Shown here: one piece after another, positions 37,975 through 61,242 of the stretch
Layout: every line of letters begins with the position of its first letter
Position numbering within the stretch: the stretch's first letter is position 1
NCBI RefSeq assembly: GCF_003073045.1
Contig: NW_020229207.1
Location: forward strand, 1-64,000
Length of the DNA stretch: 64,000 bases
Reading direction: 5' to 3'
Source: Pomacea canaliculata
Taxonomy: Eukaryota; Mollusca; Gastropoda; Architaenioglossa; Ampullariidae
The notes under the pieces: model-generated
Database searches by the model: none
What the model saw: only the letters and a program-made list of their open reading frames with translations
What the model was told of the DNA's origin: nothing
Translations under genes and position numbers: made by a program

Positions 37975-38331
37975 CTAGATTTCTCGCAAGCGATTGCTTG
38001 AGATGTTCACGAAGTACTTTGAGAAAGCGTCTTCATCCGCGAGCTCTGCGATGCTCATGTTACCTATCTTCTTCATCAGTTCCAGGTCCTCCAAGTCATC
38101 TGGTCGAGCCATCGGGATGAAGCTACCAATTATGAAGTCAATCATGTTGCCAAGCTCGCCAAAAATGTCTGCCTTCTTCACCCTGGTGACTCGTCGGTGA
38201 CGAACCAGTCGTGCAGCGGAGTCCTGGGTCAAGGAGTCCAGCGGTTTATGACCAGAAGGAAGAGCAGACGCTATGGTAACCATGGCGACAGTCATCAGGA
38301 GAAGGGTTGTAAACAGCTGGACACCTGCCAT
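37975..38331 (-). CDS. Secreted peptide precursor, module A copy
   Basis: Start chosen at the Met of MAGVQLFTTLLL because it sits one base after a splice acceptor (TTCTTGATTCTGCATAATGTTTAG). An upstream in-frame ATG at 38340 would lie in the intron. Signal peptide of about 23 residues ending TIASA before LPSGHK; propeptide LPSGHKPLDSLTQDSAARLV; cleavage sites RHRR and VKK. The mature region (ADIFGELGNMIDFIIGSF) is hydrophobic and acidic. Then comes ARPDDLEDLELMKKIG, shared with B, and a C-terminal tail with two possible N-glycosylation sites (NMS, NIS). Total 118 residues. The 5' exon ends at 39478 with donor GTGAGTGAAA, giving a 1,145-bp intron. Function unknown; a secreted bioactive peptide is inferred. 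Confidence 0.75.
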   Translation of the reverse strand: MAGVQLFTTLLLMTVAMVTIASALPSGHKPLDSLTQDSAARLVRHRRVTRVKKADIFGELGNMIDFIIGSFIPMARPDDLEDLELMKKIGNMSIAELADEDAFSKYFVNISSNRLREI

Positions 38332-39180
38332 GCTAAACATTATGCAGAATCAAGAATTAAAGAAATTATAAGAATTAGAGAAGAAGGAAAGAAATAGAAA
38401 CAAACATTAAGAGATGAAAGAAAAATTGAAGGAAATAAGTAGTGAAAAAGAAACACAAAAAAGAAAACATAAGAAGAAAGGTTGGTAGATATCATAGCTA
38501 GCCAAATAAATATCATGACATAAATATATCGTGGGATCATCTTTAACTGGAAGAAAAGAAAGATAAAAGGCAAAGAGATGTAAAAGAAATAAAGATAGAA
38601 ATTGAGACAATAGCAAGGAACAAATTAAATAAATTAAAGGAAACACTAAAGTCTTAGAATTTAAAATGACAATAGGATGACAACAGCATACTTAAAGTTA
38701 AAAACAAAATACTCTTTTTGTTGTAAAGTCTAGACATTTATGATTCCACGGCCCTATGCTCCACTCGGGGTGATAAGGAACACGAAAATGTATGATTCCA
38801 AGTGTGTCGGCTACGTTTAACATGATATTTGTGAGCAAATCCAGTTATCTGACTGTCACACTTTCTGAACGAGCAGGTTGGGCGGTATAAGAGTGGAGAG
38901 AAAGAGAAGGAGAGAGAAGATCCTTGCTAGCAGTGTACATGTGGTAACAGATATCCAAGCAGGCGGGTGCATACATCTAGACTTCATAGAACGACAGTTT
39001 TCACATTTAAAATTCGTATGTCATAAGTAGGAAAGTTTATATAGAATTGTTCGACAGTCAAATGTGTGACAAGCTCTATCCTTGGAAACATTAGCAGTGT
39101 GTGGTAAAGCTACGTGTGTTTATGTGCAAAAAGACGACTACTTCTGCTGCCAATGAAACTCAAAATGCTGAATCGGCTAG

Positions 39181-39444
39181 CAGCACTATTACCACCCCCG
39201 CAATAACCATGCGAAAGATGTGGAGACTAGCATCAGTACTGTACAAGTAGAAATACTTACTAAACATACACTGGACGTGTCTGTTCTCAAAAGAAATATA
39301 AAGCAATTAAAATATTTCCTGAGAAATACAATTGCAGGTGAGGGAAAATGCCTGCAAGATTATTACCGGAATCGCCTAAGCGTGCTTCAGCAAAACATCG
39401 AAACTGCAAAGAGGCCAACGTCTTTAGCTCGACTCAAACAGTAA
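39181..39444 (+). other. Small open frame kept in modules A, B and D, antisense to intron
   Basis: A frame open from 39181 reads ...DVETSISTVQVEIL... to SLARLKQ and is kept open in B (to 47475) and D (59774-59998, minus strand) with a few substitutions. It has no ATG, only a GTG codon, and lies antisense inside the first intron of the peptide gene. No domain is recognised. Because the modules are young, the open frame may be chance. Confidence 0.25.
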
Positions 39445-39477
39445 GACAGAAGATGATGCAAAGAAGCTTTCACTCAC

Positions 39478-39700
39478 CTTGTGTTCAGAAAGCAGAGTCC
39501 AACCGGCGTAACGGAGCTGCAGGTATTTGCCAGGTGTTTGCCAGGTGTTTGCCAGGTGTGGTGCCAGGTGCTTGCAGCAGTCAGCGGCTGTCTGTGGCCG
39601 TCTGGTGAGAAGCTCTTCGTCCGCGAGGTCTTTTCTAGGGTCGTCGTGTTCGTGTACAATGGTCGTTTCTGTGCATAGCCAACGTGAGTGTTTTTTAAAT
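39478..39700 (-). other. 5' exon of module A peptide gene (mostly untranslated)
   Basis: On the minus strand the sequence ends CTGAACACAAG followed by GTGAGTGAAAG, a good donor that is the same in B (47509) and D (59740) and recognisable in C (51580) and E (55676). It pairs with the acceptor one base before the start codon. Several short frames cross it but none joins the signal peptide in phase convincingly. The left boundary is given; the transcription start is not known. A repeated GCCAGGTGTTT word lies inside on the plus strand. Confidence 0.5.
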
Positions 39701-40360
39701 TTGGGTACAAAGGTAGACGACTGGTCTCCTTGCACAAAACAAACATTCATCTGCGACGGTGATGAGCAATCAATTCAATTTTCAATACGCGTTGCCCAAC
39801 CCTCCCAACAAACAGAAGACATGAACAGATTTGGAAGAAAACTACTGTGAGCAGCAAGTGAACGTTGACTGCTCTTCCTTTCACTTTCATTTCTTTGATG
39901 TGCTGTCAACTGAGGCAAGGACCCGTGCTGGCTCTCAACGGCCATCAGTTCCAATCTGCAGGTTGGAAAGACTAAGTCTTCTGTAGAAACGCAGAATACA
40001 TCAACAGAGACTCGTGTCGACGGAGCTAAAATTGCCAGAAGACTGCTGGCAGAGATGAAATCACAAACCAGAGGAAACTTGCTCTAACATTTTTAAAGGA
40101 AAGGACTGACTGTGTGGTCTTGAACATCTTCAAAATGAACCGTTATATAGAAAAAAAAACCGGAAGTCGACGGACAATTCGAAAGTCGCAGAAGAAAATA
40201 ATAGCCAAACAGTTCTGTACGGCAACGGAAAAAGCTACGGCCTATACAATGGGCACCAAAAACACAACAATCTATTCTAATAAAAGTACAAAAAAAAAAA
40301 AAAAAAAAAAATTACCGAGAGCCGCCTTCCTCAAGCCTGCTAGGCGAAGGGACGCCACTC

Positions 40361-40375
40361 CTATATATAAAGGGT
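40361..40375. promoter_or_regulatory. TATA-like word kept in every module
   Basis: Module A has CCTATATATAAAGGG between GACGCCACT and TGATGTGAAGACAACGG. The same place in B (49205-49218), C (50789-50802) and E (56473-56486) reads CCTATATATATAGG, a perfect palindrome, and in D (58057-58071) a slightly longer TA run. It could be a core promoter for a transcript in either direction; no transcript start is visible from sequence. Confidence 0.35.
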
Positions 40376-41015
40376 GATGTGAAGACAACGGTATCACAGT
40401 GTTGGATCACATCATCAATGCCACCTTCAACTGACAGCCACCAAAGCTGGCGGAGGAAAGGTGTAGGCTTGTCCGCATGTCACCCACGGACGACAATACT
40501 ACGACATATTATTTGAGCCTTTTGAAGTCTTCCAGTCAGTGATTAAGGACATCGACGAAATGAGAGATGCAGCAACCTGCTGGCACAACACAAAGCTTAC
40601 ATGAGATCTTTGGTGGAATAAACTGAAGGATCAGACTGATGCTACCCTTTAAGGAAGATAGACTTACAGAATATATCACTCAGAAAATAATGATGCATTG
40701 AAGATAAAATAAAACCAATAGTTTGGGAGAGACGATCACCCCATAAAAGGTAAAACTAGTATAGAACGGCAGACCTCAACTTACTTGAAGAAACTACTGG
40801 AAAGGTCTCATTTCTTTTATAATTCTTTTTTATAATCTTTTGATTGTAGTGAGAAAGAAAGACAGAGAGAGAGAGAGAGATGTGGATGTGAGAACAAGAA
40901 TAAAGATGACGGATATTATCTAATCCTCTGCAATGAACGGTTGGCATAACGGATCGGCTTGAATTGAAGCGGCGCGATGACAGTGAACCCACCAGCCAAC
41001 ATGTTCTCATGACAG

Positions 41016-41075
41016 GACCATCCTGAGGAAATGTGTATGGCCCGCAGGCCGAAAACGTTTGGGCATCACTGGTGT
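41016..41075. mobile_element. Fragment of hAT end (family of 9317-9760)
   Basis: GTGTATGGCCCGCAGGCCGA followed by AAACGTTTGGGCATCACTGG is the reverse complement of a CAGTGATGCCCAA end like that at 9317. Only one end remains. It sits exactly where module A stops resembling module B, so it marks a breakpoint. Confidence 0.6.
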
Positions 41076-42010
41076 AGGAGAAGCAATGACAAAGAGAAAG
41101 GTTGTTCCCTAAACTTTCAGTCCTTAGAAACTGAGGTGTGACATAGAGATCTGACATCTTGAGGCAGCCTATCTTGTGGTGCCCATGCTCTCCCTGGCTG
41201 TCTTTACCTTCCTCAACCATCTTTAAGCAACAATTCAGCATCTGCGACACACGGGTGTCGAAGCGGCTTCTGCGCGCCTCCGGCTAAAGATGCTAGTTCT
41301 TTAATCACACAACTGTCCGTTTTCCCTTAAAAAAAAAAGACCACAAAAGAAAGAAAAAAAAGTGATTGACCCCCATCCGTATCTTTCTCACACTCTTTCC
41401 ACGGCTTTTATTTTTTAATCATGTAAAACACAACATAGACATTTTGTTTCTACTGCATTTTAAAGTTTTTTAAAATTTAATTTTATTTGACAGTTGTTCC
41501 GCGAGGGACAGTACGTACCATGATCCATCCATATTCAGCTCTAAAATCTGAAAGAACTATAGAGAGGTATCTTGACGACACAAACGACGATAAAAACAGT
41601 TACAAAATGAAAGAGCGGTGGTCGAGCTCTGTCCATCGTGCGTCAAGCCACACACACACAAATAAATAAAAAAATAAAATAAAAAATAAAAATAAAAATG
41701 AACCAACAAAAAACAAAAAAATAAAACCAACAAGAACAAAACAAATAAAACCAACAAGAACAAAACAAATAAAACCAACAAGAACAAAACAAATAAAACC
41801 AAGAAAAATCAAAACAAAAATTAAACTGTCTCATTTCAACACTTTTAATTGGACAACTAGAAGCAATGCACAGGATGAAAATGTCCCCCACCTTCCATGT
41901 TTATCGTGGCCGCCATAACTTTCAGTTTAGGAATGAAAATAACAATTGAACAGCAGATTCTGCTTTAAAAATAAGTAAAGAATAAAATCACTTTATTGAA
42001 AGTGTGCATA
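41076..42010 (+). repeat. Flank repeat X, copy 1
   Basis: Matches 63018-63930 in direct orientation and 53570-54296 inverted. It includes AGGAGAAGCAATGACAAAGA, a GCGCGCCTCCGGCTAAAGATGC word and an AAAT/CAAACA-rich low-complexity middle (41655-41820), and ends near AAATCACTTTATTGAAAGTG. The open frames through the A-rich part are low-complexity artefacts. No gene is supported. Confidence 0.75.
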
Positions 42011-43559
42011 TATGCATATGCATATACGTGTGTGTGTGTGTCATAGAGAGATGACTAAGCAGCCAGCAAAACGAGGGTGGCGGAGCTTCGCCTGTTGCAT
42101 GACTAACAGGTTTTTTTTTTTTTAGAAAGTGGGAAAGAAAGAGGGAAGATTATTGAATTCACTGTCCCCGGCCAGCTCTTCACTTCCCAAGGAAACACAG
42201 CAAGTGGAGGAACAATGAGTGGAGGGGAGTGGAGGTTGCGACTGCCGAGCAAGATGCTGTATTTGTATTTTTGTGCATCTCAGGTTTTTGTACTTCGGAT
42301 TTGTTATGCTGATGACACACAATTTTGTCTCTCTCTATGTATATATAAATAAAGGAAAAAAGGATAAAAAGACAAATACGACAAAAAGAATGATGTGAAA
42401 TTAGTCAAGATATAAATGAAGACAAAAATAAGAACGAAAATAAATATAGAAAAGCAAAAACTAAAGTCCTGAGATTTAAAGTAACATTAGGAGAACAAGA
42501 GCTCCTGTAAAGTTGAAAATAATATAGTATTTTTGTTGTAAAGTCTAGACATTTATGATCCCAGGTGTGTCGGCTTCGTTTAGCCGTATATTTTTGACAA
42601 CTTTAAAAGAGGAAAGGTTGATAGCGAAGGAATAGTTATCTGTCACATCCCCAGAAAAATCAGGCCAAGTGGAATAAGAGTCAAGAGAGAAAGAGAGGAA
42701 GAGAGAGAGAGAGAAAGAGAGAGTGAGATCATCGCTAGTAGTGTACACTAACAGCAACCAAGGAGAAAATGCATGGCGATTCTGAAACTTCGTCAAATGA
42801 AGAGTCCACTAATCAGAATTGAAGCAAGTGACCGTCTCTGTCTAGGCTTTAAATAATGACAGTCAGCACATCTTATAACGAGAATGGCATAAGTAGGAAA
42901 GTTGACATAGTCTTGTTTAAGAGTAGAATGTGGCGCCAGCTTGATGTTAGGAAACAATTGTTGTTTGTGGTAAAGCTACGTGTGTTTATGTGTAAAATAC
43001 TGCTGCTGAATGCTAAATCGGCTGATCTGAAATTATCTCTTGTCAATAGTAATGCAAAGTCATTAAAATATCGTACTAAAGAGAAATCCTCCTCCTCTTC
43101 CTCCTCCTCCTCCTCCTCATCATCATCATCGTCGTCGTCGTCGTCGTCAGCACCATTCTTTTTGAGTAGCACCGATCGGGTCTACCAGTGCTAATCGTCA
43201 GGGGACATGATGAGGCTCAGCAGTGACAATGGGGTCAGTTCTGAGCCCCTCCGAGTAAGTCCCCCTCATATGGCGGTCTCCCCACTGTTTAATGTTCGCC
43301 AGTACTCCCTGACACCTCTTGATACTAATACACTTACAGAATGCGATAGCTGTAGAGGCAATATTACTAAATGACAGTTGTGAAGAGTACCCACTGTATG
43401 ACAGCTGGGGAGGTAGTAGGTAGTAAGGACTATAGTTTCTCGCCATAACTATATGTATGCCGTGGTGTGACTCAGTATAACAGACTGACATTGACCTCTC
43501 TGATTTCAATTACCTAGAGCAAGAGAGGGGAATCGTTTTTCCTCCAAGAACCATTTCTA
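42011..43559. repeat. Diverged module-like sequence and unassigned spacer
   Basis: 42340-43070 is a diverged, direct-orientation relative of 38400-39310 in module A (TTGTTGTAAAGTCTAGACAT; GGTAAAGCTACGTGTGTTTA), but it lacks a readable peptide gene. 43087-43148 is a TCC/TCA/TCG trinucleotide tract. 43200-43559 matches nothing else noticed in the window. No gene is supported. Confidence 0.5.
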
Positions 43560-44181: not shown

Positions 44182-44280
<99 letters not shown>

Positions 44281-44865
44281 TGCACAACATAAATTTATGA
44301 TGCTGTTAAAAAAGTTGATAGATTTACTTAAATCTGTGGTTGCATTGTGTGTGTGGGGGAGCGGATCAAATGATGTTGCCCAGCCTTGCCCTTTGAGGTA
44401 GATAAAACACATCATATGAAACAATGTCCGTTTTGCGACCAATATGGCAGAGTACATAAGAAGAAGCATTCATGCGGAAAGAAGGACATCAGTTTTGGCA
44501 TAAACTGTAATTACCGTACATGTGTGGTCTTATGTCGGGCGACGTTGAGCTTAAGAAGACCATTCGAAAACGGCCTGCGCATGCGCACAAAGTTCATTAA
44601 TTCTCTGTATCTAATCTACACAGTTAATCTGTAGACAGCAGTTTTCATGGGGAACAGATTTTTCTGGCAGCCAAGAGACTAGACAACGCTCATTTACTTC
44701 TTGTGAAGTCTCTTCACTTCCAGGAAAACCTGATCACCATACGTACATAAATTGTTGTGAATAGCGTGTGTTATTATTGTGTAGATAATGAACAGACAAT
44801 CAACTTTATGCGCATGCGCAGACCATGCCAAGAAATCGGGGCAAACGACGAGAAGCATACGTGGC
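43560..44865. other. Spacer between modules A and B with a large ATT microsatellite
   Basis: 43560-43940 resembles 35060-35400. 44182-44281 is an uninterrupted ATT tract of about 33 units. A short frame at 44386-44634 encodes KQCPFCDQYGRVHKKKHSC, which looks like a lone Cys/His zinc-binding fragment, possibly of a transposase, but nothing supports a gene. The remainder to 44865 is unassigned. Confidence 0.5.
44182..44281 (+). repeat. (ATT)n microsatellite, about 33 units
   Basis: About 100 bp of pure ATT repeat. The poly-Tyr, poly-Leu and poly-Asn frames across it are artefacts. Confidence 0.98.
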
Positions 44866-46018
44866 AGTCCCGTTATGTACTCGTCTGTGTCCCGTAATGG
44901 TCGCTCATTGTATCTCTTAATATTTACTATATTATTATGATCGCAAATTTATGTTGATATGAAAACAAATCTCTTGTTGTTTACTCAAATTTTGCTGTCC
45001 TACTGTAACAACTGATTACATGATAACGTATTTTGTTTTCTTGAATTGTTTGAAGCACTTTTAACGCTTTAAAAATTCTGGTGTCCTTCGTTTAGCTATT
45101 AGAAAGTTATAAGCTACTTACATATGTTATATGACACATTTTTATGTTTTTACAAGTTGAGTTTCTACCTGTCTACAGTACGTGCACTGCTGATTACATG
45201 GGCAGACTTTCGCGTGCTTGCACACACGCACGCATACAGACATACGTACACACGCATGCAACTAGAAACACTCACAAATGCATAAACATATTAACGGTTG
45301 TTAATGTTTATTTTTCCAGTTTTATCAAGCCAAATGGAGTAATCGCTGAGATATGCTTCATGCAAGGTTAAAGCCGATTTCTAATATTGTTCTAAAGTTT
45401 TGTATTCAGTCTTAATTCATAACCATAGTAACTTCAGCAACACCCCACCACCCCCACCACTCTTCCTTTTTGCTGTTTAGAAGAAGGAATCTGAGAAACA
45501 AATCTTCTTTCAGTAGTCAGTGTAGCCATGTTACGTTTGGAAAATGTGGGTGAGATGTCAGCCGCCATCTTGGTGACACAAGGACGACTCATGAGTTTGT
45601 CTTTGGTCATCTCTGCGGATAAAGCGACAAGGCGCCTCTGTGCAGCTCATGGAAATTGCATTTTGTATATTATTCTGCTGTGATTACCGGTGAAGTAGGA
45701 TTTTAGGAGAACCACTTGATCTTTAATATACTTTCGCTACTTAGTGGCGCGATGAGGGGCTGTCTTCTTTTTCTTGAACTTAAAGCGTTGGGTTTCCTCG
45801 ATCTGTTCTTAAGATGCTAGTAAAATAGTTACGAACTACGTGACTACATGAAAAATCACACTAACATTGTAATATCTGGTGAAATAAAATCCCAGCTTTT
45901 CATTTTGCCTGCGTTTGTCCCAACGTTTCTAATTTTATCTTTATCGGTTTTCCTGCTGGCAAAAATGCGATTCCTTAAGGCTTGCACCCCGAAGAGCTAC
46001 ATTTCTACCAGGCACTTT

Positions 46019-46369
46019 CTAGATTTCTCGCAAGCGATTGCTTGAGATGTTCACGAAGTACTTTGAGAAAGCGTCTTCATCCGCGAGCTCTGCGATGCTC
46101 ATGTTACCTATCTTCTTCATCAGTTCCTGGTCCTCCAAGTCATCTGGTCGAGCCTTCGGGACTAAGTCACCAAGTATGGTGGCGGCAACGATGCCAACAG
46201 CCGGTACTAAAAATTTCTTCCAGGCCAATCGTCGGAGACGAACCAGTCGTGCTGCGGAGTCCTGTGTCAAGGTGTCCAGCGGTTTATGACCAGAAGGAAG
46301 AGCAGATGCTATGGTAACCATGGCGACAGTCATCAGAAGAAGGGTTGTAAACACCTTGACACCTGCCAT
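46019..46369 (-). CDS. Secreted peptide precursor, module B copy (cationic amphipathic core)
   Basis: 116 residues from the Met of MAGVKVFTTLLL, one base after the acceptor. An upstream ATG at 46378 would be intronic. The signal peptide and propeptide match the A copy almost exactly. After the RLRR cleavage site the core starts LAWKKFLVPAVGIVAAT and continues to LGDLVPKA: lysines near the start, then a hydrophobic helix, as in many membrane-active or antimicrobial peptides. It then rejoins the A copy at ARPDDLEDQELMKKIG and the NMS/NIS tail. At DNA level, A and B are almost identical on both sides of a core of about 90 bp (46150-46240) but unlike within it. The 5' exon ends at 47509. Antimicrobial or venom use is inference. 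Confidence 0.75.
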   Translation of the reverse strand: MAGVKVFTTLLLMTVAMVTIASALPSGHKPLDTLTQDSAARLVRLRRLAWKKFLVPAVGIVAATILGDLVPKARPDDLEDQELMKKIGNMSIAELADEDAFSKYFVNISSNRLREI

Positions 46370-48204
46370 GCTAAACATTATGCAGAATCAAGAATTAAAG
46401 AATTTATAAGAATTAGAGAAGAAGGAAAGAAATAGAAACAAACATAAAGAGATGAAAGAAAAATTGAATAAAATAAGTAGTGAAAAAGAAACACAAAAAA
46501 GAAAACATAAGAAGAAAGGTTGGTAGATAGAAATAAATATCATAACATAAATATATCGTGGGATCATCTTTAACTGGAAGAAAAGAAAGATAAAATGCAA
46601 AGAGATGTAAAAGAAATAAAGATAGAAATTGAGACAATAGCAAGGAACAAATTAAATAAACTAAAGGAAAAACTAAAGTCTTGGAATTTAAAATGACAAT
46701 AGGATGACAAAAAATCCCGTAAAGTTAAAAACAAAATACCGTTTTTGTTGTAAAGTCTAGACATTTGTGATTCCACGGCCCTATGCTCCACTCTGGGTGA
46801 TAAGGAACACGAAAATGTATGATTCCAAGTGTCGGCTACGTTTAACATGATATTTGTGAGCAACTCTAGTTATCTGACTGTCACACTTTCTGAACGAGCA
46901 GGTTGGGCGGTATAAGAGTGGAGAGAAAGAGACGAAGGAGAAGAGAGAAGATCCTTGCTAGCAGTGTACATGTGGTAACAGATATCCAAACAGGCGGGTG
47001 CATACATCTAGACTTCATAGAACGTCAGTTTTCACATTTAAAATTCGTATGTCATAAGTAGGAAAGTTTATATAGAATTGTTCGACAGTCAAATGTGTGA
47101 CAAGCTCTATCCTTGGAAACATTAGCAGTGTGTGGTAAAGCTACGTGTGTTTATGTGCAAAAAGACGACTACTTCTGCTGCCAATGAAACTCAAAATGCT
47201 GAATCGGCTAGCAGCACTATTACCACCCTCGCAATAACCATACGAAAGATGTGGAGACTAGCATCAGTACTGTACAAGTAGAAATACTTATTAAACATAC
47301 ACTGGACGTGCCTGTTCTCAAAAGTAATATAATGCAATTAAAATATTTCCTGAGAAATACAATTGCAGGTAAGGGAAAATGCCTGCAAGATTATTACCGG
47401 AATCGCCTAAGCGTGCTTCAGCAAAACATCGAAACTGCAAAGAGGCCAACGTCATTAGCTCGACTCAAACAGTAAGACAGAAGATGATGCAAAGAAACTT
47501 TCACTCACCTTGTGTTCAGAAAGCGAAGTCCAACCGGCGTTACGGAGCTGCAGGTGTTTGCCAGGTGTTTGCCAGGTGTGGTGCCAGGTGCTTGCAGCAG
47601 TCAGCAGCTGTCTGTGGCCGTCTGGTGAGAAACTCTTCGTCCGCGAGGTTTTTTTCTAGGGTCGTCGTGTTCGTGTACAGTTGTCGTTTCTGTGCACAAC
47701 AAACGTGAGTGTCTTTTAAATTTGGGTACAAAGGTAGACGACTGGTCTCCTTGCACAAAACAAACATTCATCTGCGACGGTGATGAGCAATCAATTCAAT
47801 TTTCAATACGCGTTGCCCAACCCTCCCAACCAACAGAAGACATGAACAGATTTGGAAGAAAACTACTGTGAGCAGCAAGTGAACGTTGACTGCTCTCCCT
47901 TTGACTTTCATTTCTTTGATGTGCTGTCAACTGAGGCAAGGGTGTAAAGAAACAAATCATGAAAGAACTGGACAAACAACTTGAAAAAGAGTGAAAATGG
48001 GTTGTAGCATTTTTTTGGACTTAATCGGCAGTTGGCAGATCGGCTAAGAAGATATTCTGTTTCTGATGAAATTTAATAAAAATGTTCAATCTGAGTAAGC
48101 ACCATTGTAAAATCTGAAAGTACATTATGGAAATAATGCAACCAAGGTATTCCCTGTTGAATTAGAGTGACAAGGCTTTACGTCTGCTGTTTTTTCATTC
48201 CCTC

Positions 48205-48416
48205 AAAAAACAAACAAACAAACAAACAAACAAACAAACAAACAAACAAACAAACAAACAACAAACAACAAACAAACAAAACAAACAAACAAACAAACAA
48301 ACAAACAAACAACAAACAAACAAACAAACAAACAAACAAACAAACAAACAAACAAACAAACAAACAAACAAACAAACAAACAAACAAACAAACAAACAAA
48401 CAACAAACAAACAAAC
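48205..48416 (+). repeat. (AAAC)n microsatellite
   Basis: About 210 bp of CAAA repeat with occasional 3-bp slips. Frames reading CLFV or TNKQ across it are artefacts. The corresponding place in module D (near 58860-58880) has only a short TA run, so the expansion is specific to B. Confidence 0.97.
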
Positions 48417-48754
48417 CCCAATATACTATGTGAAAACCAATGCTAAAAGCAATAAATGATATCATGTGTAGAGCGCATTCCTCAATATGGAGGCGAGCTC
48501 AATTCGCTATACACAACCAACTCCAAAACCAACCGATAGCCAGCCATAAAAGAAAGATAACTACAACTGAAGTATAGCACCATTATAAACAGATACCAAA
48601 TGCATGGATAAAGGTAAAGAATTTAGAAGTGAGGGAATAGGAAATATGCTTCTTAAAGAGATTTGTTCCGAGATCGGACTTGTAAGTTTCGAATGTAGAC
48701 ACTGTTCACAGATAAAGGGGATGATCACAAACAGCAGATGGCTGTCAAGCAGAC

Positions 48755-48949
48755 ATGCAGCAGGTGATGGCAGGGTTAAAGGACCCGTGCTGGCTCTCAA
48801 CGGCCATCAGTTCCAATCTGCAGGTTGGAAAGACTAAGTCTTCTGTAGAAACGCAGAATACATCAACAGAGACTCGTGTCGACGGAGCTAAAATTGCCAG
48901 AAGACTGCTGGCAGAGATGAAATCACAAACCACAGGAAAATTGCGCTAA
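48755..48949 (+). other. 64-codon frame identical in modules B and D
   Basis: The frame MQQVMAGLKDPCWLSTAI to MKSQTTGKLR is identical in translation at 58346-58540 on the minus strand of D. Module A keeps only its later part. No domain is recognised; identity may reflect only how recent the duplication is. Confidence 0.25.
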
Positions 48950-49999
48950 CATTTTTAAAGGAAAGGACTGACTGTGTGCTCTTGAAGATCTTCAAAATGA
49001 ACAGTTATACAGAAAAGACCGGAAGTCGAAGAAAATTCGAAAGTCGCAGAAGAAAACGAAAGTCAGACAGTCCTGCACGGCAACGGAAAAAGCTACGGCC
49101 TACACTATGGGCACCAAAAAACAAATTAATTAAAGTACCAAAAAAAAAAAAAAAAATTACCGACAACCGCCTTCCTCAAGCCTGCCAGGCGAAGGGACGC
49201 CACTCCTATATATATAGGGAGGTGATGTGAAGACAACGGTATCACAGTGTTGGATCACATCATCAATGCCACCTTCAACTGACAGCCACCAAAGCTGGCG
49301 GAGGAAAGGTGTAGGCTTGTCCGCATGTCACCCTAGGAAGACAATACGACGACATACTATTTTGAGCCTTTTGAAGTCTTCCAGTCAGTGATTAGGGAGA
49401 ACGACGAAAAAAGAGATCCAGCAACCTGCTGGCACAACACAAAGCTTACATGAGCTCTTTGGTGGCAAAAACTGAAGGATCAGACTGATGCTACCATTTA
49501 AGGAAGATGGGCTTACAGAATACGTCAATCAGAAAATAATGATGCATTGAAGATAAAATAAAACCAATAGTTCGGGAAAGAGAGATGATCACCCCATAAT
49601 ATGTAAAACTAGTATAGAACGGCAAAGACCTCAATTTACTTGAAGAACCTACTGGAAAGGTCTCATTTCTTTTATAATTCTTTTTTCTAATCTTTTGATT
49701 GTAGTGAGAAAAAAAAAGACAGCGAGAGAGAGAGAGAGATGTTGATGTGAGAACAAGAATAAAGATGAAGGATATTATCTAATCCTCTGCAGTGAATGGT
49801 TTGGCATAACGGATCGGTTTGAATTGAAGCTGCGCGATGACAGTGAACCCACCTGCCAACGTGCTCGATATTTCCACAAGACGTCCTCATGAAGATGTCT
49901 TCCCAACGTGCTCTCATGACAGGACCATCCAGCCTCCATTTCTTAACATATTGTGGGTATTTCATCACTCTGGCAATGGCGGTCACATTATGTCATCTT

Positions 50000-52900
50000 C
50001 ACTGACGATACACACTTCAAGTTGGTCCTCGCCCCTCCGCCCCGCTAATCACCATGTATCACCCCTTCTCCTCCCCCTTTCAAACTGCATCTGCCCCCCC
50101 CCCGCGCTAACCTTTGCTGTGGTCAGCTATTCCAATACAAAACTTCCCGCACGAAGAATCCTTAAATGTAATATAAACAGGAATGGAATATAATTACGAT
50201 GTTCTAACTTTCCTGGAGCATTAAAAGCAATAGGTGACAGTTCTTCAAATGGAAAGGAATCTTTATTCTTATTAACACATCCACATCTCTCTCTCTCTCG
50301 CTGTCTTTCTTTCTCACTCCAATCAAAAGATTATAAAAAATGAACGATAACAGAAAGGAGATCCTTCCAATAGGTCTTTCAAGTAAATTGAGGTCTTTGC
50401 CGTTCTATACTAGTTTTACCTTTTATGGGGTGCTCGTCTCTACCAAACTATTGTTTTTATTTTATCTTCAGTGCATCATTATTTTCTGATTGACGTATTC
50501 TGTAAGTCCATCTTCCTTAAAGGGTAGCATCAGTACCATCCGACAGTTTTTGCCACCAAAGATCTCATGTATGCTTTGTGTTGTGCCAGCAGGTTGCTGC
50601 ATCTCTCTTTTCGTCGATCTCCTTAATCACTGACTGGAAGTCTTCAAAAGGCTCAAAATAATATGTCTTCCTGGGGTGACATGTGGACAACCCGACATCT
50701 TTCGGCCGCCAGCTTTGGTGGCTGTCAGTTGAAGGTGGCATTGATGACGTGATCCATCACTGTGATACCGTTGTCTTTACATCACCTCCCTATATATATA
50801 GGAGTGGCGTCCCTTCACCTGGCAGACTTGAGGGCGTCTGTTGGTAATTTTTAGTTGTTGTTGTACTTTTATTAGTTTGTTGTGTTTTTGGTGCCCATTG
50901 TGTATGCCGAAGCTTTTTCCGTTGCCGTACAGAACTGTTTGACTGTTATTTTCTTCTGCGACTATCGAGTGTTCCTTCGACCGCCGGTCTTTTTTGCCTT
51001 TGAAGTATTTGTTATTATTTAGTGTCTTCTTTTTTATTTTGAGGGAATGGTAGCAGGATGAGAAAACAGCAATCTGACAGCCTTGTCACACTTACTCAAC
51101 AAGAAATATCGTGTTTACATATATCTCAATAGTATTCTTTCTATTTAAAATGTGCTTTCTCAGATTTAACGTTTTTATTACATTTCTTCCATATGTAAAT
51201 CCAAATACCATGCTGTGTATACTTACTCTTAGCTTACAAATGTTTTCAAATGATTTGTAGTTATGTTACCTTTCCTTTAACTAACAAAATGACAGTCAGA
51301 AACAGAATATCTTTTTAACCGATCTGTCGACTGCCGATTCAGTAAGTCTAAAAAAATGCTACAGCTCATTTTCCCCTTTTAAGTTGTTTTGTTCAGTCCT
51401 TTAATGATTTAAATGTTTTTATTAGTTGCCATTGACTGCTCTTGTACACGAATACGACGACCCTAGAAAAGACCTCAGACGAAGAGTTCTCACCAGACGC
51501 CACAGACAGCTGCTGACGCACCACACCTGGCAAACACCTGCAGATCCGTTACGCGGTTGGACTTCGCTTTCTAACACAAGGTGAGTGAAAGTTTCTTTGC
51601 ATCATCTTCTGTCTAACTGTATGAGTTGAGAGAAAGAAGGAAGTCTCATTATATTTTATAAAATTATTTTTGCTACCAATATTTTGAAGTCGAGAGATCG
51701 AATTTAGAAGTTCGTTAAGTCATTTTAGCACGATTCTCCCTTCAATACTCGAAGAATTAGTGTACAGAGAGTGAGAGAAAGAATGAGAGAGAGACGAGAT
51801 GAGACATGGAAAAAGGAAAGGAGAAGAAAAAAAGAGGGAAAAGAAAAAAAGTCAGGCAAAGGTCGTCGAAGGTATAAGGCCATTCGCACCCAATCTATAT
51901 TATTTTAAGGAAAGGGTTGGATATTTTGTTAATATTTAAAGCTTCTCAAACGTCTTTTTTTTTCTCTGTAGTTCAGATGTTTGGTTAAAGCTCGCTTAGG
52001 CATTTTCCCTCACCTGCTTGTTTCTTGTTATTTTCTAAATTTCTATCTTTATTTATTTTTTATCTCTTTGCCTTTTATCTTTCTTTTCTCTTCGAGCTTA
52101 ACATTAGCCCTTATATATTTATATAGCTTGTCTTGATATTTATTTGGCTGGCTACACTATCTAACAAAGGTTCTAAATACGTCTGTGTTTATTTTTCACT
52201 GCTTACTTATTTCCTTTATTTTTTTTTCTCTCATCGCTTAATTTTTGTTTCTTTTCTATCTCTATTTCCTTCCTTCTTCTTTAATTCTTATAATTTCTTT
52301 AATTCTTGATTCTGCATAATGTTTAGCATGGCAGGTGTCCAGCTGTTTACAACCCTTCTCCTGATGACTGTCGCCATGGTTACCATAGCAACTGCTCTTC
52401 CTTCTGGTCATAAACTGCTGGACACCTTGAGCCAGGACTCCGCTGCACGACTGGTTGTCACGGACGAGTCACCAGGTGTGCCGAGACTGTCCGTTGACCT
52501 GTCTCTCGGCACCCTGGCCAATGCGATTCGCCAGGAGGAAACTGGCCGATACTTGGAGGACCTGCAGCTGATGAAGCAGAATCGGCAAGAGGAACTTCGC
52601 AGAGCCCGCTACTTCCAACGCCTTGCGCCTCCGCAACAGCGACGATGTCTAGGAATCGCTTGCGAGAAATCTAGTGCCTGGGAGAAACGGAGCTCTGCAG
52701 GGTGAAAGCCTTAAGGAGTCGTCTTTTTGCCAAGAAGAAAACTTAAATAAAATCAATTAGATTAGAAATCGGCTTTAACCTTGCATGAAGCATATCTCAG
52801 CGATTTCTCCTTTTGGCTTGATAAAACTGGAAAAATAAACATTAACAACCGTTAATATGCTTATCATTTTTGTGAGGGTTTGTAGCTGCATGCGTGTGTA

Positions 52901-53036
52901 CGTGTGTCTGTATGCGTGCATGTAATCAGGCAGTGCACGTACTGTAGACAGGTAGAAACTCAACTTGTAAAAACATAAAAAGTGTCATATAACATATGTA
53001 AGTAGCTCATAACTTTCTAATAGCTAAACGAAGGAC
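50000..53036 (-). repeat. Array module C (inverted orientation)
   Basis: Shorter, more diverged module in inverse orientation, mirrored by module E (54292-57190). In map order it holds tail, TATA-like palindrome (50789), 5' exon (donor at 51580), a 746-bp intron, the C peptide copy and the head sequence (CTTGCATGAAGCATATCTCA onward). C and E introns are about 750 bp against about 1,140 in A, B and D, so C/E form a sub-lineage. Confidence 0.8.
52328..52705 (+). pseudogene. Secreted peptide precursor, module C copy, degraded
   Basis: Shares the MAGVQLFTTLLL signal peptide, the propeptide and part of the core with the E copy, but the remainder no longer follows the family. It looks broken, with about two breaks, and is treated as a fossil of the gene kept in module E, of which it is the inverted partner. 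An AATAAA lies about 40 bp beyond the frame (near 52746). Age is recent, since flanks still align closely with E. Confidence 0.55.
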
Positions 53037-54291: not shown

Positions 54292-57190
54292 TTGAGGATT
54301 ACAAGGGCAGACTTTCGCGTGCTTGCACACACGCCCGCATACAGACACGTACACACGCATGCAGCTACAAACTCTCACAAATGTATAAGCATATTAACGG
54401 TGTTTAATGTTTATTTTTCCAGTTTTATCAAGCCAAAAGGAGAAATCGCTGAGATATCCTTCATGCAAGGTTAAAGCCGATTTCTAATCTAATTGATTTT
54501 ATTTAAGTTTTCTTCTTGGCAAAAAGACGACTCCTTAAGGCTTTCACCCTGCAGAGCTCCGTTTCTCCCAGGCACTAGATTTCTCGCAAGCGATTCCTAG
54601 ACATCGTCGCTGTTGCGGAGGCGCAAGGCGTTGGAAGTAGCGGGCTCTGCGAAGTTCCTCTTGCCGATCTGCTTCATCAGCTGCAGGTCCTCCAAGTCAT
54701 CGGCCAGTTCCTCCTGGCGAATCGCATTGGCCAGGGTGCCGAGAGACAGGTCAACGGACAGTCTCGGCACATCCCTGGTGACTCGTCCGTGACCAACCAG
54801 TCGTGCAGCGGAGTCCTGGCTCAAGGTGTCCAGCAGTTTATGACCAGAAGGAAGAGCAGTTGCTATGGTAACCATGGCGACAGTCATCAGGAGAAGAGTT
54901 GTGAACAGCTGGACACCTGCCATGCTAAACATTATGCAGAATCAAGAATTGAAGAAATTATAAGAATTAAAGAAGAAGGAAGGAAATAGAGATAGAAAAG
55001 AAACAAAAATTAAGCGATGAGAGAGAAAAAAAAATATAAAGGAAATAAGTAAGCAGTGAAAAATAAACACAGACGTATTTAGAAACTTTGTTAGATAGTG
55101 TAGCCAGCCAAATAAATATCAAGACAAGCTATATAAATATATAAGGGCTAATGTTAAGCTCGAAGAGAAAAGAAAGATAAAAGGCAAAGAGATAAAAAAT
55201 AAATAAAGATAGAAATTTAGAAAATAACAAGAAACAAGCAGGTGAGGGAAAATGCCTAAGCGAGCTTTAACCAAACATCTGAACTACAGAGAAAAAAAAA
55301 AGACGTTTGAGAAGCTTTAAATATTAACAAAATATCCAACCCTTTCCTTAAAATAATATAGATTGGGTGTGAATGGCCATATACCTTCGACGACCTTTTC
55401 CTGACTTTTTTTCTTTTCCCTCTTTTTTTCTTCTCCTTTCCTTTTTCCATGTCTAATCTCGTCTCTCTCTCATTCTCTCTCTCACTCTCTGTACACTAAT
55501 TCTTCGAGTATTGAAGGGATAATCATGCTAAAATGACTTAACGAACTTCTAAATTCGATCTCTCGACTTCAAAATATTGGTAGCAAAAAAAATGTAATAA
55601 AATATAATGAGACTTCCTTCTTTCTCTCAACTCATACAGTTAGACAGAAGATGATGCAAAGAAACTTTCACACACCTTGTGTTCAGAAAGCGAAGTCCAA
55701 CCGGCGTAACGGATCTGCAGGTGTTTGCCAGGTGTGGTGCAGTCAGCAGCTGTCTGTGGCCGTCTGGTGAGAAACTCTTCGTCCGCGAGGTCTTTTCTAG
55801 GGTCGTCGTATTCGTGTACAAGACGCAGTCAATGGCAACTAATAAAAACATTTAAATCATTAAAGGACTGAACAAAACAACTTAAAAGGGAGAAAATGAG
55901 CTGTAGCATTTTTTGGACTTACTGAATCGGCAGTCGACAGATCGGTTAAAAAGATATTCTGTTTCTGACTGTCATTTTGTTAGTTAAAGGAAAGGTAACA
56001 TAACTACAAATCATTTGAAAACATTTGTAAGCTAAGAGTAAGTATACACAGCATGGTATTTGGATTTACATATGGAAGAAATGTAATAAAAACGTTAAAT
56101 CTGAGAAAGCACCATTTTAAAATAGAAAGAATACTATTGAGATAATGTAAACACGATATTTCTTGTTGAGTAAGTGTGACAAGGCTGTCAGATTGCTGTT
56201 TTCTCATCCTGCTACCATTCCCTCAAAATAAAAAAGAAGACACTAAATAATAACAAATACTTCAAAGGCAAAAAAGACCGGCGGTCGAAGGAAAATTCGA
56301 AAATCGCAGAAGAAAATAATAGTCAAACAGTTCTGTACGACAACGACTCTACCAAAACAAAGCTTCGGCCTACACAATGGGCACCAAAAACACAACAAAC
56401 TAATAAAAGTACAACAACAACAAAAAATTACCAACAGACGCCCTCAAGTCTGCCAGGTGAAGGGACGCCACTCCTATATATATAGGGAGGTGATGTGAAG
56501 ACAACGGTATCACAGTGTTGGATCACGTCATCAATGCCACCTTCAACTGACAGCCGCCAAAGCTGGCGGAGGAAAGGTGTAGGGTTGTCCACATGTCACC
56601 CCAGGAAGACAATACAACGACATATTATTTTGAGCCTTTTGAAGACTTTCAGTCAGCGATTAAGGAGATCGACGAAAAGAGAGATGCAGCAACCTGCTGG
56701 CACAACACAAAGCATACATGAGATCTTTGGTGGCAAAAACTGTCGGATGGTACTGATGCTATCCTTTAAGGAAGATAGACTTACAGAATATGTCACTCAG
56801 AAAATAATGATGCACTGAAGATAAAGTAAAAACAATAGTTTGGGAAAGAGAGATGATCACCCCATCAAAGGTAAAGCTAGTATAGAATGGCAAAGACCTC
56901 GATTTACTTGAAAGAACCTATTGGAAGGATCTCATTTCTATTATCGTTCATTTTTTATAATCTTTTGATTGTAGTGAGAAAGAAAGACAGCAAGAGAGAG
57001 AGAGATGTGGATGTGTTAACAAGAATAAAGATTCCTTTCCATTTGAAGAACTGTCACCTATTGCTTTTAATTCTCCAGGAAAGTTAGCACATTGTAATTA
57101 TATTCCGTTCCTGTAAAGCTTGTATTTTAGGATTCTGCATGTGGGAAGTTTTGTATTGGAATAGCTGACCGCAGCAAAGGTTAGCGCAGG
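54292..57190 (+). repeat. Array module E (direct orientation)
   Basis: Mirror partner of C. It holds the module head (truncated at GATTACAAGG), the E peptide gene on the minus strand, a 751-bp intron with donor GTGTGTGAAAG, the 5' exon (about 55676-55830), the TATA-like palindrome (56473) and the tail, which runs into the E/D junction. Confidence 0.8.
54597..54923 (-). CDS. Secreted peptide precursor, module E copy: CRF/sauvagine-like amidated peptide
   Basis: 108 residues from the Met of MAGVQLFTTLLL, one base after the acceptor (upstream ATG at 54932 not used in this model). Signal peptide ending TIATA, propeptide LPSGHKLLDTLSQDSAARLV, basic sites GHGR and VTR, then a core of about 36 residues starting DVPRLSVDLSLGTLANAI and ending LEDLQLMKQI. 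This is followed by GKR, the standard amidation-plus-cleavage signal, and a C-terminal tail. The N-terminal P-x-x-S-(I/V/L)-D-L-(S/T)-x-x-x-L pattern and an L-M-x-x-I-amide end are shared with CRF, urocortin and sauvagine (sauvagine PISIDLSLELL; CRF ends KLMEII-amide). The core is about four residues shorter than CRF. Homology versus mimicry cannot be settled here. Confidence 0.75.
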   Translation of the reverse strand: MAGVQLFTTLLLMTVAMVTIATALPSGHKLLDTLSQDSAARLVGHGRVTRDVPRLSVDLSLGTLANAIRQEELADDLEDLQLMKQIGKRNFAEPATSNALRLRNSDDV

Positions 57191-58117
57191 GGGGGGGGAA
57201 TGCAGTTATAAAGGGGGAAGGAGAAGGGGTGATATATGGTGTCTGAGCGGGGCGGAGGGGCGAGGACCAACTTGAAGTGAGTATCGTCAGTGGAGATGAC
57301 ATAATGTGACCGCCATTGCCAGAGTGATGAAATACCCACAATATGTTTAGAAATGGAGGCTGGATGGTCCTGTCAGACATTGGCATCTTCATGAGGACGT
57401 CTTGTGGGCACATCGAGCACGTTGGCTGGTGGGTTCACTGTTATCGCGCAGCTTCAATTCAAACCGATCCGTTATGCCAAACCATTCACTGCAGAGGAAT
57501 AGATAATATCCTTCATCTTTATTCTTGTTCTCACATCCACGTTTCTCTCTCTCTCTCTTTCTTTCTCACTACAATCAAAAGATTATAAAAAAGAATTATA
57601 AAAGAAATGAGACCTTTCAAGTAGGTTCTTCAAGTAAATTGAGGTCTTTGCCGTTCAATACTAGTTTTACATATTATGGGGTGATCATCTCTCTTTCCCA
57701 AACTATTGGTTTTAATTTATCTTCAGTGCATCATTATTTTCTGATTGACGTATTCTGTAAGCCTATCTTCCTTAAAGGGTAGCATCAGTACCATCCGACA
57801 GTTTTTGCCACCAAAGATCTCATGTAAGCTTTGTGTTGTGCCAGCAGGTTGCTGCATCTCTCTTTTCTTCGATCTCCTTAATCACTGACTGGAAGACTTC
57901 AAAAGGCTCAAATAATATGTCGTCGTATTGTCTTCCTGGGGTGACATGTGGACAACCCAACATCTTTCCTCCGCCAGCTTTGGTGGCTGTCAGTTGAAGG
58001 TCGCATTTATGATGTGATCCAACACTGTGATACCGTTGTCTTCACATCACATCTTCATATATATATATAGGAGTGGCGTCCCTTCGCCTGGCAGGCTTGA
58101 GGAAGGAGGCTGTCGGT

Positions 58118-58151
<34 letters not shown>

Positions 58152-59559
58152 TACTTTTATTAGTTTGGTTGTGTTTTTGGTGCCCATTGTGTAGGCCGAA
58201 GCTTTTTCCGTTGCCGTGCAGAACTGTTTGACTATTATTTTCTTCTGCGACTTTCGAATTTTCCGTCGACTTCCGGTCTTTTCTGTATAACGGCTCATTT
58301 TGAAGATCTTCAAGAGCACACAGTCAGTCCTTTCCTTTAAAAATGTTAGCGCAATTTTCCTGTGGTTTGTGATTTCATCTCTGCCAGCAGTCTTCTGGCA
58401 ATTTTAGCTCCGTCGACACGAGTCTCTGTTGATGTATTCTGCGTTTCTACAGAAGACTTAGTCTTTCCAACCTGCAGATTGGAACTGATGGCCGTTGAGA
58501 GCCAGCACGGGTCCTTTAACCCTGCCATCACCTGCTGCATGTCTGCTTCACAGCCATCTGCTGTTTGTGATCATCCCCTTTATCTGTGAACAGTGTCTAC
58601 ATTCGAAACTTACAAGTCCGATCTCGGAACAAATCTCTTTAAGAAGCATATTTCCTATTCCCTCACTTATAAATTCTTTACCTTTATCCATGCATTTGGT
58701 ATCTGTTTATAATGGTGCTATACTTCAGTTGTAGTTGTGTTTCTTTTATGGCTGGCTATCGGTTGGTTTTGGAGTTGGTTGTGTATAGCGAATTGAGCTC
58801 GCCTCCATATTGAGGAATGCGCTCTACACATGATATTATTTATTGCTTTGAGCATTTGTTTTCACATAGTATATATATATTGAGGGAATGGGAGCAGGAT
58901 GATAAAACAGCAGACGTAAAGCCTTGTCACTCTAATTCAACAAGGAATACGTTGGTTGTATTATCTCAATAATGTACTTTCAGATTTTACAATGCTGCTT
59001 TCTCAGATTGAACATTTTTAGTAAATTTCATCAGAAACAGAATATCTTCTTAGCCGATCTGCCGACTGCCGATTAAAAAAAAAAAAATCCAAAAAATGCT
59101 ACAACCCATTTTCATTCCTTTTCAAGTTGCTTTGTTCAGTTTTTTCATGATTTAAATGTGTTTTTGTTAGTTGCTATTGACTGCGTCTTGTCTAGATGAT
59201 GATGCTGATTGATACTACTCGTACAACCCACAACAGTTCATCGTCTTTTTTTTATCGGTGTCATCGCCATTTTCTGTTCGTTCACACATTTTTTGTGATT
59301 TGTGTCTTCACCCCCTTGCCTCAGTTGACAGCACATCAAAGAGATGAAAGTGAAAGGAAGAGCAGTCAACGTTCACTTGCTGCTCACAGTAGTTTTCTTC
59401 CAAATCTGTTCATGTCTTCTGTTTGTTGGGAGGGTTGGGCAACGCGTCTTGAAAATTGAATTGAATGCTCATCACCGTCGCAGATGAATGTTTGTTTTGT
59501 GCAAGGAGACCAGTCGTCTACCTTTGTACCCAAATTTAAAAGACACGTTTGCTGTGCAC

Positions 59560-59740
59560 AGGAACGACAATTGTACACGAACTCGACGACCCTAGAAGAG
59601 ACCTCGAGGACGAAGAGTTTCTCACCAGACGGCCACAGACAGCTGCTGACTACTGCAAGCACCTGCACCACACCTGGCAAACACCTGGCAAACACCTGCA
59701 GCTCCGTTACGTCGGTTGGACTTCACTTTCTGAACACAAG
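59560..59740 (+). other. 5' exon of module D peptide gene
   Basis: Ends CTGAACACAAG at 59740, followed by donor GTGAGTGAAAG. Intron 59741-60881 ends TAATTTTTAG, and the start codon follows one base later. The left boundary is only a guess. The exon contains two tandem ACCTGGCAAAC words. Frames cross it but none is clearly coding. Confidence 0.5.
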
Positions 59741-60882
59741 GTGAGTGAAAGTTTCTTTGCATCATCTTCTGTCTTACTGTTTGAGTCGAGCTAAAGACGT
59801 TGGCCTCTTTGGAGTTTCGATGTTTTGCTGAAGCACGCTTAGGTGATTCCGGTAATAATCTTGCAGGCATTTTCCCTCACCTGCAATTGTATTTCTCAGG
59901 AAATATTTTAATTGCTTTATATTACTTTTGAGAACAGGCACGTCCAGTGTATGTTTAATAAGTATTTCTACTTGTACAGTACTGATGCTAGTCTCCACAT
60001 CTTTCGTATGGTTATTGCGGGGGTGGTAATAGTGCTGCTAGCCGATTCAGCATTTTGAGTTTCATTGGCAGCAGAAGTAGTCGTCTTTTTGCACATAAAC
60101 ACACGTAGCTTTACCACACACTGCTAATGTTTCCAAGGATAGAGCTTGTCACACATTTGACTGTCGAACAATTCTATATAAACTTTCCTACTTATTACAT
60201 ACAAATTTTAAATGTGCAAACTGTCGTTCTATGAAGTCTAGATGTATGCACCCGCCTGCTTGGATATCTGTTACCAAATGTACACTGCTAGCAAGGGTCT
60301 TCTCTCTTCTTGTTCGTCTCTTTCTCTCCACTCTTATACCGCCCAACCTGCTCCTTCAGAAAGTGTGATAGTCAAATAACTAGAGTTGCTCACAACTATC
60401 ATGTTAAACGTAGCCGACACTTGGAATCATACATTTTCGTGTTCCTTATCACTCCGAGTGGAGTATAGGGCCGTGGAATCATAAATGTCTAGACTTTACA
60501 ACAAAAACGGTATTTTGTTTTTAACTTTACGTGAGCTGTTGTCATCCTATTGTCACTTTAAATCATAAGACTTTAGTTTTTCCTTTAATTTATTTAATTT
60601 GTTCCTTGCTATTGTCTCAATTTCTATCTTTATTTATTTTACACCTCTTTGTTTTCTTTTCTTCCAGCTTAAGATGATCCCACTATATATTTATGTCATG
60701 ATATTTTTTTGGCTAGCTACGATATCTACCAACATGTCTCCATCTGTTTTCTTTTTTGTGTTTCTTTTTCACTACTTATTTTCTTCAATTTTTCTTTCAT
60801 CTCTTAATGTTTGTTTCTATTTCGTTCATTCTTTTCTAATTCTTATAGTTTCTTTAATTCTTGATTCTGCATAATTTTTAGC

Positions 60883-61242
60883 ATGGCAGGTGTCCAGCTG
60901 TTTACAACCCTTCTCCTGATGACTGTCGCCATGGTTACCATAGCATCTGCTCTTCCTTCTGGTCATAAACCGCTGGACACCTTGAGCCAGGACTCCGCTG
61001 CACGACTGGTTCGTCGCCGACGAGAAACCCGGGCGTTGCCGGAAGTGGCCTCTGGTATTAATTCCGGCTCCATTCTTAATGGGCTGATCCGGATGACTCG
61101 ACCCGCTGACTCGGAGGACCCGGAGCCGATAAATAACAATGGTAAGAGGATCGTCTCTCCCCATGCCACTTCCATCTTCGGCGGCTCAAAGCCCTTCCCG
61201 AACAGGCTATACGATCCAATGCATCCCTTGATACTAAGCTAG
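60883..61242 (+). CDS. Secreted peptide precursor, module D copy
   Basis: 119 residues from MAGVQLFTTLLL. This copy lacks the in-frame ATG upstream of the acceptor that A, B, C and E have, which supports MAGV as the true start in all copies. Signal peptide ending TIASA, propeptide LPSGHKPLDTLSQDSAARLV, cleavage site RRRR. The core (ALPEVASGINSGSILNGLIR, then TRPADSEDPEPINNN) differs from all other copies and ends in GKR, so it may be amidated. The tail after GKR is also unlike the others, although DNA similarity returns right after the stop (GAGAAATGTAGCTCTTCAGG). Function unknown. Confidence 0.7.
   Translation: MAGVQLFTTLLLMTVAMVTIASALPSGHKPLDTLSQDSAARLVRRRRETRALPEVASGINSGSILNGLIRMTRPADSEDPEPINNNGKRIVSPHATSIFGGSKPFPNRLYDPMHPLILS

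Follow-up and report, generated by a model that had tools for sequence, protein, structure and literature searches.

The window analysed here, the first 64 kb of the 72,265-bp contig C17 of the Pomacea canaliculata assembly, contains five copies (A to E) of a gene predicted to encode a small peptide precursor. We give a probability of about one half to the reading that these copies belong to a clustered group of two-exon genes that encode precursors of small secreted peptides, a group seen to date in the golden apple snail alone and with a selected core in A, B and B4 (a copy on a second contig, C4), and that a defence or exocrine effector is the first choice of function.

A preliminary description of the window had reported an array of five copies with a common signal and pro-region. 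Five such open frames are present, but the array is larger than the window, with nine copies detected across the assembly. A whole-genome search with copy A (118 amino acids; E up to 10; 440 Mb in 24 contigs) returned 11 match rows, which resolve into nine gene copies, the C-terminal parts of F and F4 being matched as rows of their own, and all nine copies are confined to C17 (A to F) and C4 (B4, E4, and F4). The sixth copy, F (LOC112556029, protein P0001), lies just beyond the window on the minus strand, from C17:66935 onward. The three C4 copies are near-duplicates: B4 (14672036, minus), E4 (14679396, plus), and F4 (14685200, minus). Ten first-look candidates were scored for this count, which distant copies could escape. 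When 170 kb of C4 was searched in six frames, the matches listed (for queries B, E, and F) comprised the same three copies and one weak row (E 0.11). In the window, a search gave only weak rows beyond its five copies, with E above 0.6. At the protein level, copy A matched two P. canaliculata proteins, both annotated as uncharacterized: LOC112556029 (P0001) and LOC112556026 (P0002). The gastropod origin assumed at first is thereby confirmed. Copy E is, letter for letter, the last 119 residues of P0002.

The secreted-precursor anatomy attributed to these genes is supported by their sequence layout of signal, short pro-region, basic site, core, and acidic tail. In the unbroken copies, a 23-residue signal ending in A-[ST]-A is followed by the pro-region LPSGHK..LD.L[ST]QDSAARLV and then by the basic site (RXRR in A, B, B4, and E; GQRR in E4; GHRR in F and F4; GHGR in D), the core, and the tail. 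Both leading segments are conserved across paralogues, with differences at 1 to 6 of 66 bases in the signal and 0 to 4 of 63 in the pro-region (ten pairs). None of the eight unbroken proteins contains cysteine; the shifted frame of C does. The same anatomy had been ascribed to all five copies in the window, which is accurate for A, B, and E, with RXRR site, core, and tail all retained, but not for the truncated D or the frameshifted C. Most differences between C and D are small indels, with hardly any substitutions, and one cluster of eight substitutions resembles two offset indels. The frameshifts of C could thus be assembly errors instead of decay, and C may be either a decayed copy or an assembly error.

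Exon 1 is probably untranslated, and exon 2 would encode the signal, the short pro-region, a basic site of furin/proprotein-convertase type, a core of about 25 to 30 residues that lacks cysteine, and the acidic C-terminal extension. A 3' splice site (TTTAG/C) directly precedes the ATG of MAGV, making this the more likely translation start, and the predicted protein P0002 joins the MAGV exon to an exon ending ACAAG/GTGAGT. A 26-base exon-1 donor block was found 0.76 to 2.2 kb upstream of all nine copies (seven identical; 24/26 in D, 22/26 in C). Around the donor, the sequences are 86 to 100% alike per block over the preceding 100 and the following 50 bases (six pairs covering eight copies, C left out); the further intron is unrelated in four of the six pairs and alike in A/B4 and, for a stretch, in D/F. 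The end of exon 1 and the start of exon 2 are islands of identity, while the introns can differ. Together, the conserved donor blocks and the identity at exon edges argue for real, spliced genes. In the gene model of P0002 (window positions 59484-60883), about 86 residues from the exon-1 region are fused to the start of E, which would mask the signal peptide; the start of this model is probably misplaced.

The flanks of A and B had been described as almost identical around a divergent core of about 90 bp, and the counts bear this out: the two copies differ at 35/90 positions in the core, 1/132 in the tail, 18/315 in the 5' flank, and 1/112 in the 3' untranslated region (core versus flanks, P = 4 × 10−20). 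These core differences are not the product of a few indels, since A/B are separated by 35 substitutions and one 6-bp gap and B/B4 by 20 substitutions with no gap. Between B and B4, the core differs at 20/90 positions, the tail at 3/132, the 5' flank at 18/638, and the 3' flank at 17/441, with flanks about 3% divergent. A/B4 gave 36/87 in the core, 2/132 in the tail, and 26/629 in the 5' flank. The far 3' flank of A is divergent from B (84/433) and from B4 (89/433) because the repeat ends there. The core was the most divergent 90-base window both in A/B4 (37 differences, next 8; 25 windows) and in B/B4 (19, next 6; 34 windows), supporting focal divergence in young duplicates. In E/E4 (42 windows) and F/F4 (60 windows), the core was outside the top five windows, with core counts of 6/87 (5' flank, 38/631) and 0/87 (5' flank, 27/590), respectively. 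Hypervariability of the core, claimed for the whole array, thus holds within subfamily I (A, B, and B4); for the family as a whole it was rejected once the C4 copies were compared, E/E4 changing at flank rate and F/F4 having identical cores. Differences between subfamilies are older: the inner cores of A and D (P = 0.78) and of B and D (P = 0.27) are no more alike than dinucleotide shuffles. The whole cores and the tails of these pairs nevertheless show a likeness that none of 500 shuffles reached.

Codon-level comparison identified the process in the B/B4 core. Nonsynonymous differences amounted to 18.5 over 65.2 sites and synonymous differences to 1.5 over 24.8, and the resulting pN − pS was reached by 11 of 2,000 neutral codon simulations. 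The nonsynonymous rate was about nine times that of the flank (P = 5 × 10−11) and the synonymous rate was not distinguishable from it (P = 0.20; counts rounded to whole numbers for both tests), while signal, pro-region, and tail together showed 1 nonsynonymous difference in 195 sites. The divergence of the B/B4 core is positive selection by substitution. Simulations for A/B (68/2,000) and A/B4 (50/2,000) lean toward a nonsynonymous excess, with silent divergence raised too (A/B4 core, 7/22 silent sites versus 26/629 in the flank; P = 4 × 10−5). Positive selection on the core, as first suggested for the array, is therefore clear in one pair, accompanied by raised silent divergence in two more that lean the same way, and not seen in E/E4 or F/F4. 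The core values for other pairs were 218 (E/E4), 319 (D/F), 1 (B4/E4), and 39 (E4/F4) of 2,000; across F/F4, nonsynonymous sites changed less than the flank (4/290 versus 43/994; P = 0.02). The B/E and A/E cores showed no nonsynonymous excess (671 to 706 of 2,000; P = 0.34 and 0.35) and neither did any tail tested, and silent sites over core plus tail were far above the flanks in both pairs (P about 1 × 10−14). The pairs formed between C17 and C4 may be either alleles or segmental duplicates, and the divergence tests require only that they be young.

If these genes act as their layout suggests, the signal would route the precursor into the secretory path, and a convertase would cut at RXRR and, in A, B, B4, E, and E4, probably also directly C-terminal to the Arg that comes after the core. 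The peptide released in this way, linear, hydrophobic, and possibly helical, would then act extracellularly on changing targets, whether microbes, parasites, predators, or mates. A defence effector, exocrine or of the haemolymph, appears to be the most likely function, with a reproductive peptide ranked second and mostly decaying duplicates last. We infer from sequence that the family may have a venom or immune role, and a membrane or a receptor is a possible target of the A and B cores. Core charge is 0 in A, +2 in B, +1 in B4, 0 in E, and −1 in E4, and the tails of A and B each carry −5. Both the A and the B core are hydrophobic, with hydrophobic moments that are not significant (reached by 155/1,000 and 642/1,000 shuffles, respectively); of the cationic amphipathic core first reported for B, the charge stands and the amphipathicity does not.

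Several observations weigh against the effector reading. The raised silent divergence in the A core and in core plus tail of B/E and A/E is not explained by selection on amino acids alone. E and E4 evolve neutrally (nonsynonymous, 14/261 versus 62/1,061 in the flank; P = 0.88) and C is frameshifted, such that part of the array may be decaying. The selection tests share sequences, and their P values and simulations are uncorrected for the number of pairs. Given the hydrophobic moments of A and B, a classical amphipathic helical antimicrobial peptide is not indicated, and the structure models are helical at low confidence (mean pLDDT, 54.4 and 53.0).

Fast-changing cores behind a constant signal are also expected of reproductive peptides. 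It is possible, though we regard it as doubtful, that the cluster encodes egg-mass, seminal, or pheromonal peptides diversifying by sexual or sperm-egg conflict instead of defence; however, no tested copy matched the Pfam ELH family.

The structure of the locus bears on a different alternative. B-C and D-E are the two arms of an inverted duplication of 8 kb, separated by 1.4 kb (Table 1). Aligned arm to arm, they show a median of 3.5 differences per 100 aligned bases (78 windows); the top two windows (45 and 38 differences) are the core and tail of B/E, followed by windows with 22, 17, and 12, and windows over the C/D genes have at most 8. A perfect (ATT)33 repeat at 44182-44280 and a long CAAA array at 48204-48416 lie between gene copies, and the alignment has a large gap region at the CAAA array. 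From 34.5 to 72.2 kb, C17 is collinear with C4:14.670-14.691 Mb (about 91 to 96% in the main blocks), apart from the extra copies of C17; for C17 positions 1 to 34.5 kb, 170 kb of C4 contained no match longer than 150 bp. In this repeat-rich, partly palindromic setting, old divergent cores might sit in flanks repeatedly homogenised by gene conversion or block exchange, the contrast being a conversion boundary. The inverted duplication and repeated blocks argue for such exchange, as do the silent divergence of B/E, A/E, and the A/B4 core described above and the silent exon-2 sites of D/F, which differ at 2/84 between flanks differing at 216/567 (P = 1 × 10−13). These silent-site patterns, raised in some pairs and matched between divergent flanks in another, imply that block exchange or conversion also shaped the locus, and part of the between-subfamily pattern in the preliminary description is consequently not recent selection. 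As the explanation of the core contrast, exchange nevertheless seems unlikely to us: with B/B4 silent sites at flank level and nonsynonymous sites at roughly nine times that level, it is not the whole story for subfamily I.

Subfamily D/F differs from the diversifying copies in having one conserved core with a GKR amidation-type end, and looks like a constant-target, hormone-like member. A CRF-like core had been assigned to E, but the scores of E did not rise above those of shuffles (six references; P = 0.10 to 0.97), and the resemblance sits in D and F, whose cores have P-x-L-S-[IV]-D-L close to their start and end in LMKQIGKR. The motif is weak at most in A and B and absent from E. D scored 47 against urotensin I (fly DH44 against urotensin I, 48) and F scored 42 against CRF; the best score over five references was reached by 8/20,000 shuffles for D and 121/20,000 for F (P0001), four of the six reference hormone sequences being confirmed by Pfam. 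Scores against the protostome references, fly DH44 and Aplysia ELH, were at or near shuffle level (DH44, 28 to 29; ELH, 20 to 22). The Pfam CRF family (PF00473) gave no match to A to E, P0001, P0002, or the P0001 core at E up to 10, and the ELH family (PF02323) gave none to A to E or P0001, although the control, Aplysia ELH, did match. A genome-wide search with PF00473 found four subthreshold places, none over the cut-off and none at the cluster locus. The best score of a five-sequence local hidden Markov model run with filters off was 7.1 bits, and in the reference comparison unrelated peptides translated in six frames from the window scored as high as 38. On the Pfam, shuffle, local-model, and genome-wide results, membership in the CRF/DH44/ELH families is not accepted, and the likeness is retained as a motif resemblance.

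Two wider proposals build on this motif. In pipid frogs, a duplicated gastrointestinal hormone gene gave rise to hormone-like and antimicrobial peptides (PMC3731216), and the snail cluster resembles that system in its duplicated peptide genes with hormone-like and diversified members. In a freshwater snail not known to be venomous, a constant, amidated D/F peptide with a vertebrate-CRF-like motif beside hydrophobic A, B, and B4 effectors with cores under strong diversifying selection could represent an independent mollusc counterpart of this frog-skin route from hormone to defence, with D/F possibly acting on vertebrate receptors; we consider this decidedly unlikely. Hormone origin, expression, and activity are shown for the frog peptides (PMC3731216); in the snail cluster they would be putative, and the pointer to descent from a hormone gene is the D/F motif resemblance. 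Very improbable, in our judgment, is the stronger proposal that the D/F core is a genuine hormone of the CRF/DH44/ELH family, with a neuropeptide gene as the ancestor of the entire cluster: the D score nearly equal to that of DH44, the shuffle counts, the conserved GKR end, and the identical F/F4 cores speak for it, but the family models, the near-shuffle DH44 and ELH scores, the high scores of unrelated peptides, and the incomplete confirmation of the references speak against it. Least probable is that the array consists mostly of decaying duplicates of a single functional gene, F, with core differences due to loss of constraint, for although C is frameshifted, D is truncated relative to F, and E/E4 change at flank rate, amino acid change in the B/B4 core far outpaces the flanks, which is not so for the signal, pro-region, and tail of these two copies, and A, B, B4, E, and E4 keep open frames. 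These readings overlap, and the likelihoods attached to them do not form a partition.

The effector reading is best placed as a family of known kind, unnamed in what was searched: linear secreted effector peptides, lineage-restricted so far. The signal had not been recognised from a named family and was taken as possibly undescribed, and the Pfam, NCBIfam, and protein searches likewise found no named family. Among 5.8 billion proteins searched with copy A, an alignment, and the signal-plus-pro region, only two Pomacea proteins matched, in a database where other Ampullariidae need not be present. Pfam gave no family match for the copies tested, NCBIfam gave three matches, for A and B, all far below cut-off, and Rfam gave none at the gathering threshold. 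Solved structures yielded no match for A or the P0001 core and two chance-level matches for the profile. No paper was found by the signal string, short family strings, or LOC numbers, and no title or abstract among the records listed described the family, supplements lying outside this search.

Among known systems, the myticalins of Mytilus, linear cysteine-free antimicrobial peptides (PMC12294457), are similar in being a multigene, lineage-specific mollusc family with a signal, a variable cysteine-free mature part, and an anionic C-terminal extension, a layout that A and B share. The mature myticalin is described as strongly cationic (PMC12294457), unlike the neutral A and the +2 B. Mytilus proteins were absent from the protein-search matches, a direct comparison with a myticalin not having been made. 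Conotoxins (PMC10561478) likewise combine a conserved signal and pro-region with a mature part that evolves faster than flanking noncoding DNA under positive selection. Their genes are described as mainly of three exons (PMC10561478), whereas here a single coding exon holds the entire precursor and the eight unbroken copies are cysteine-free. No Conus protein was among the matches and no Pfam family matched, again without direct comparison with a conotoxin. Pom-1 and Pom-2 of Pomacea poeyana (PMC7690686) are from the same genus and constitute the one Ampullariidae antimicrobial-peptide report known to a review of apple-snail immunity (PMC9178244). As relatives they were rejected, the best of eight comparisons (E versus Pom-1) being reached by 24/2,000 shuffles.

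Table 1. Features of the peptide gene cluster in window coordinates
Feature	Position	Strand	Remarks
Gene A, exon-2 coding part	37975-38331	-	MAGV to stop; open frame 37975-38340; subfamily I, intact
A core	38107-38202	-	RHRR to before RPDD
Exon-1 donor block of A	39467-39492	-	26/26 identical
Gene B, exon-2 coding part	46019-46369	-	open frame 46019-46378; subfamily I, intact
B core	46151-46240	-	
Exon-1 donor block of B	47498-47523	-	26/26 identical
Exon-1 donor block of C	51567-51591	+	score 22/26
Copy C, open frame	52319-52705	+	subfamily III; frameshifted versus D by small indels
Gene D, exon-2 coding part	54597-54923	-	open frame 54597-54932; subfamily III; tail shorter than that of F; GHGR replaces RXRR
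D core	54708-54794	-	CRF-motif peptide continues into tail to LMKQIGKR
Exon-1 donor block of D	55665-55690	-	score 24/26
Exon-1 donor block of E	59726-59751	+	26/26 identical
Intron of E	59741-60881	+	between donor ACAAG/GTGAGT and acceptor TTTAG/C
Gene E, exon-2 coding part	60883-61242	+	subfamily II, intact; C-terminal part of LOC112556026
E core	61012-61098	+	
A block	37559-41006	+	further copy of left-arm parts (45604-47941, 48779-49866)
Left arm of inverted duplication	44822-52923	+	holds B, C
Right arm of inverted duplication	54329-62442	-	holds D, E

Other features of the window lie to the left of the cluster. At 31483-34119 (+), adjoining it, an 878-amino-acid open frame carries DUF4371 and hAT C-terminal dimerisation domains above Pfam cut-offs, a hAT-type transposase frame without stops. 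Close outside the peptide array, a 56-bp tandem repeat (three copies) at 30667-30842 lies in a region that is about 77% similar to 36286-36709. From about 3600 to 26000 (+), a series of open frames resembles one long multi-exon gene, FN3-like by eye, and nine of its exons gave no Pfam match. Exon 20440-20793 of this series is single copy, matching itself alone, once in the whole genome, on C17 only; C4 carries a near-duplicate of the right half of C17.

A review of apple-snail immunity is aware of a single antimicrobial-peptide report in the Ampullariidae (PMC9178244). If expressed, an undescribed effector family in P. canaliculata, a major invasive pest, would fill a gap in the knowledge of its immunity. 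Within one family, this cluster combines a core that is frozen in F/F4, one that drifts neutrally in E/E4, and one under positive selection in A/B/B4, and its flanks are of an age suited to a neutral clock, being young. It thus makes it possible to ask directly how much of the evolution of a hypervariable mature peptide is due to selection and how much to conversion or block exchange.

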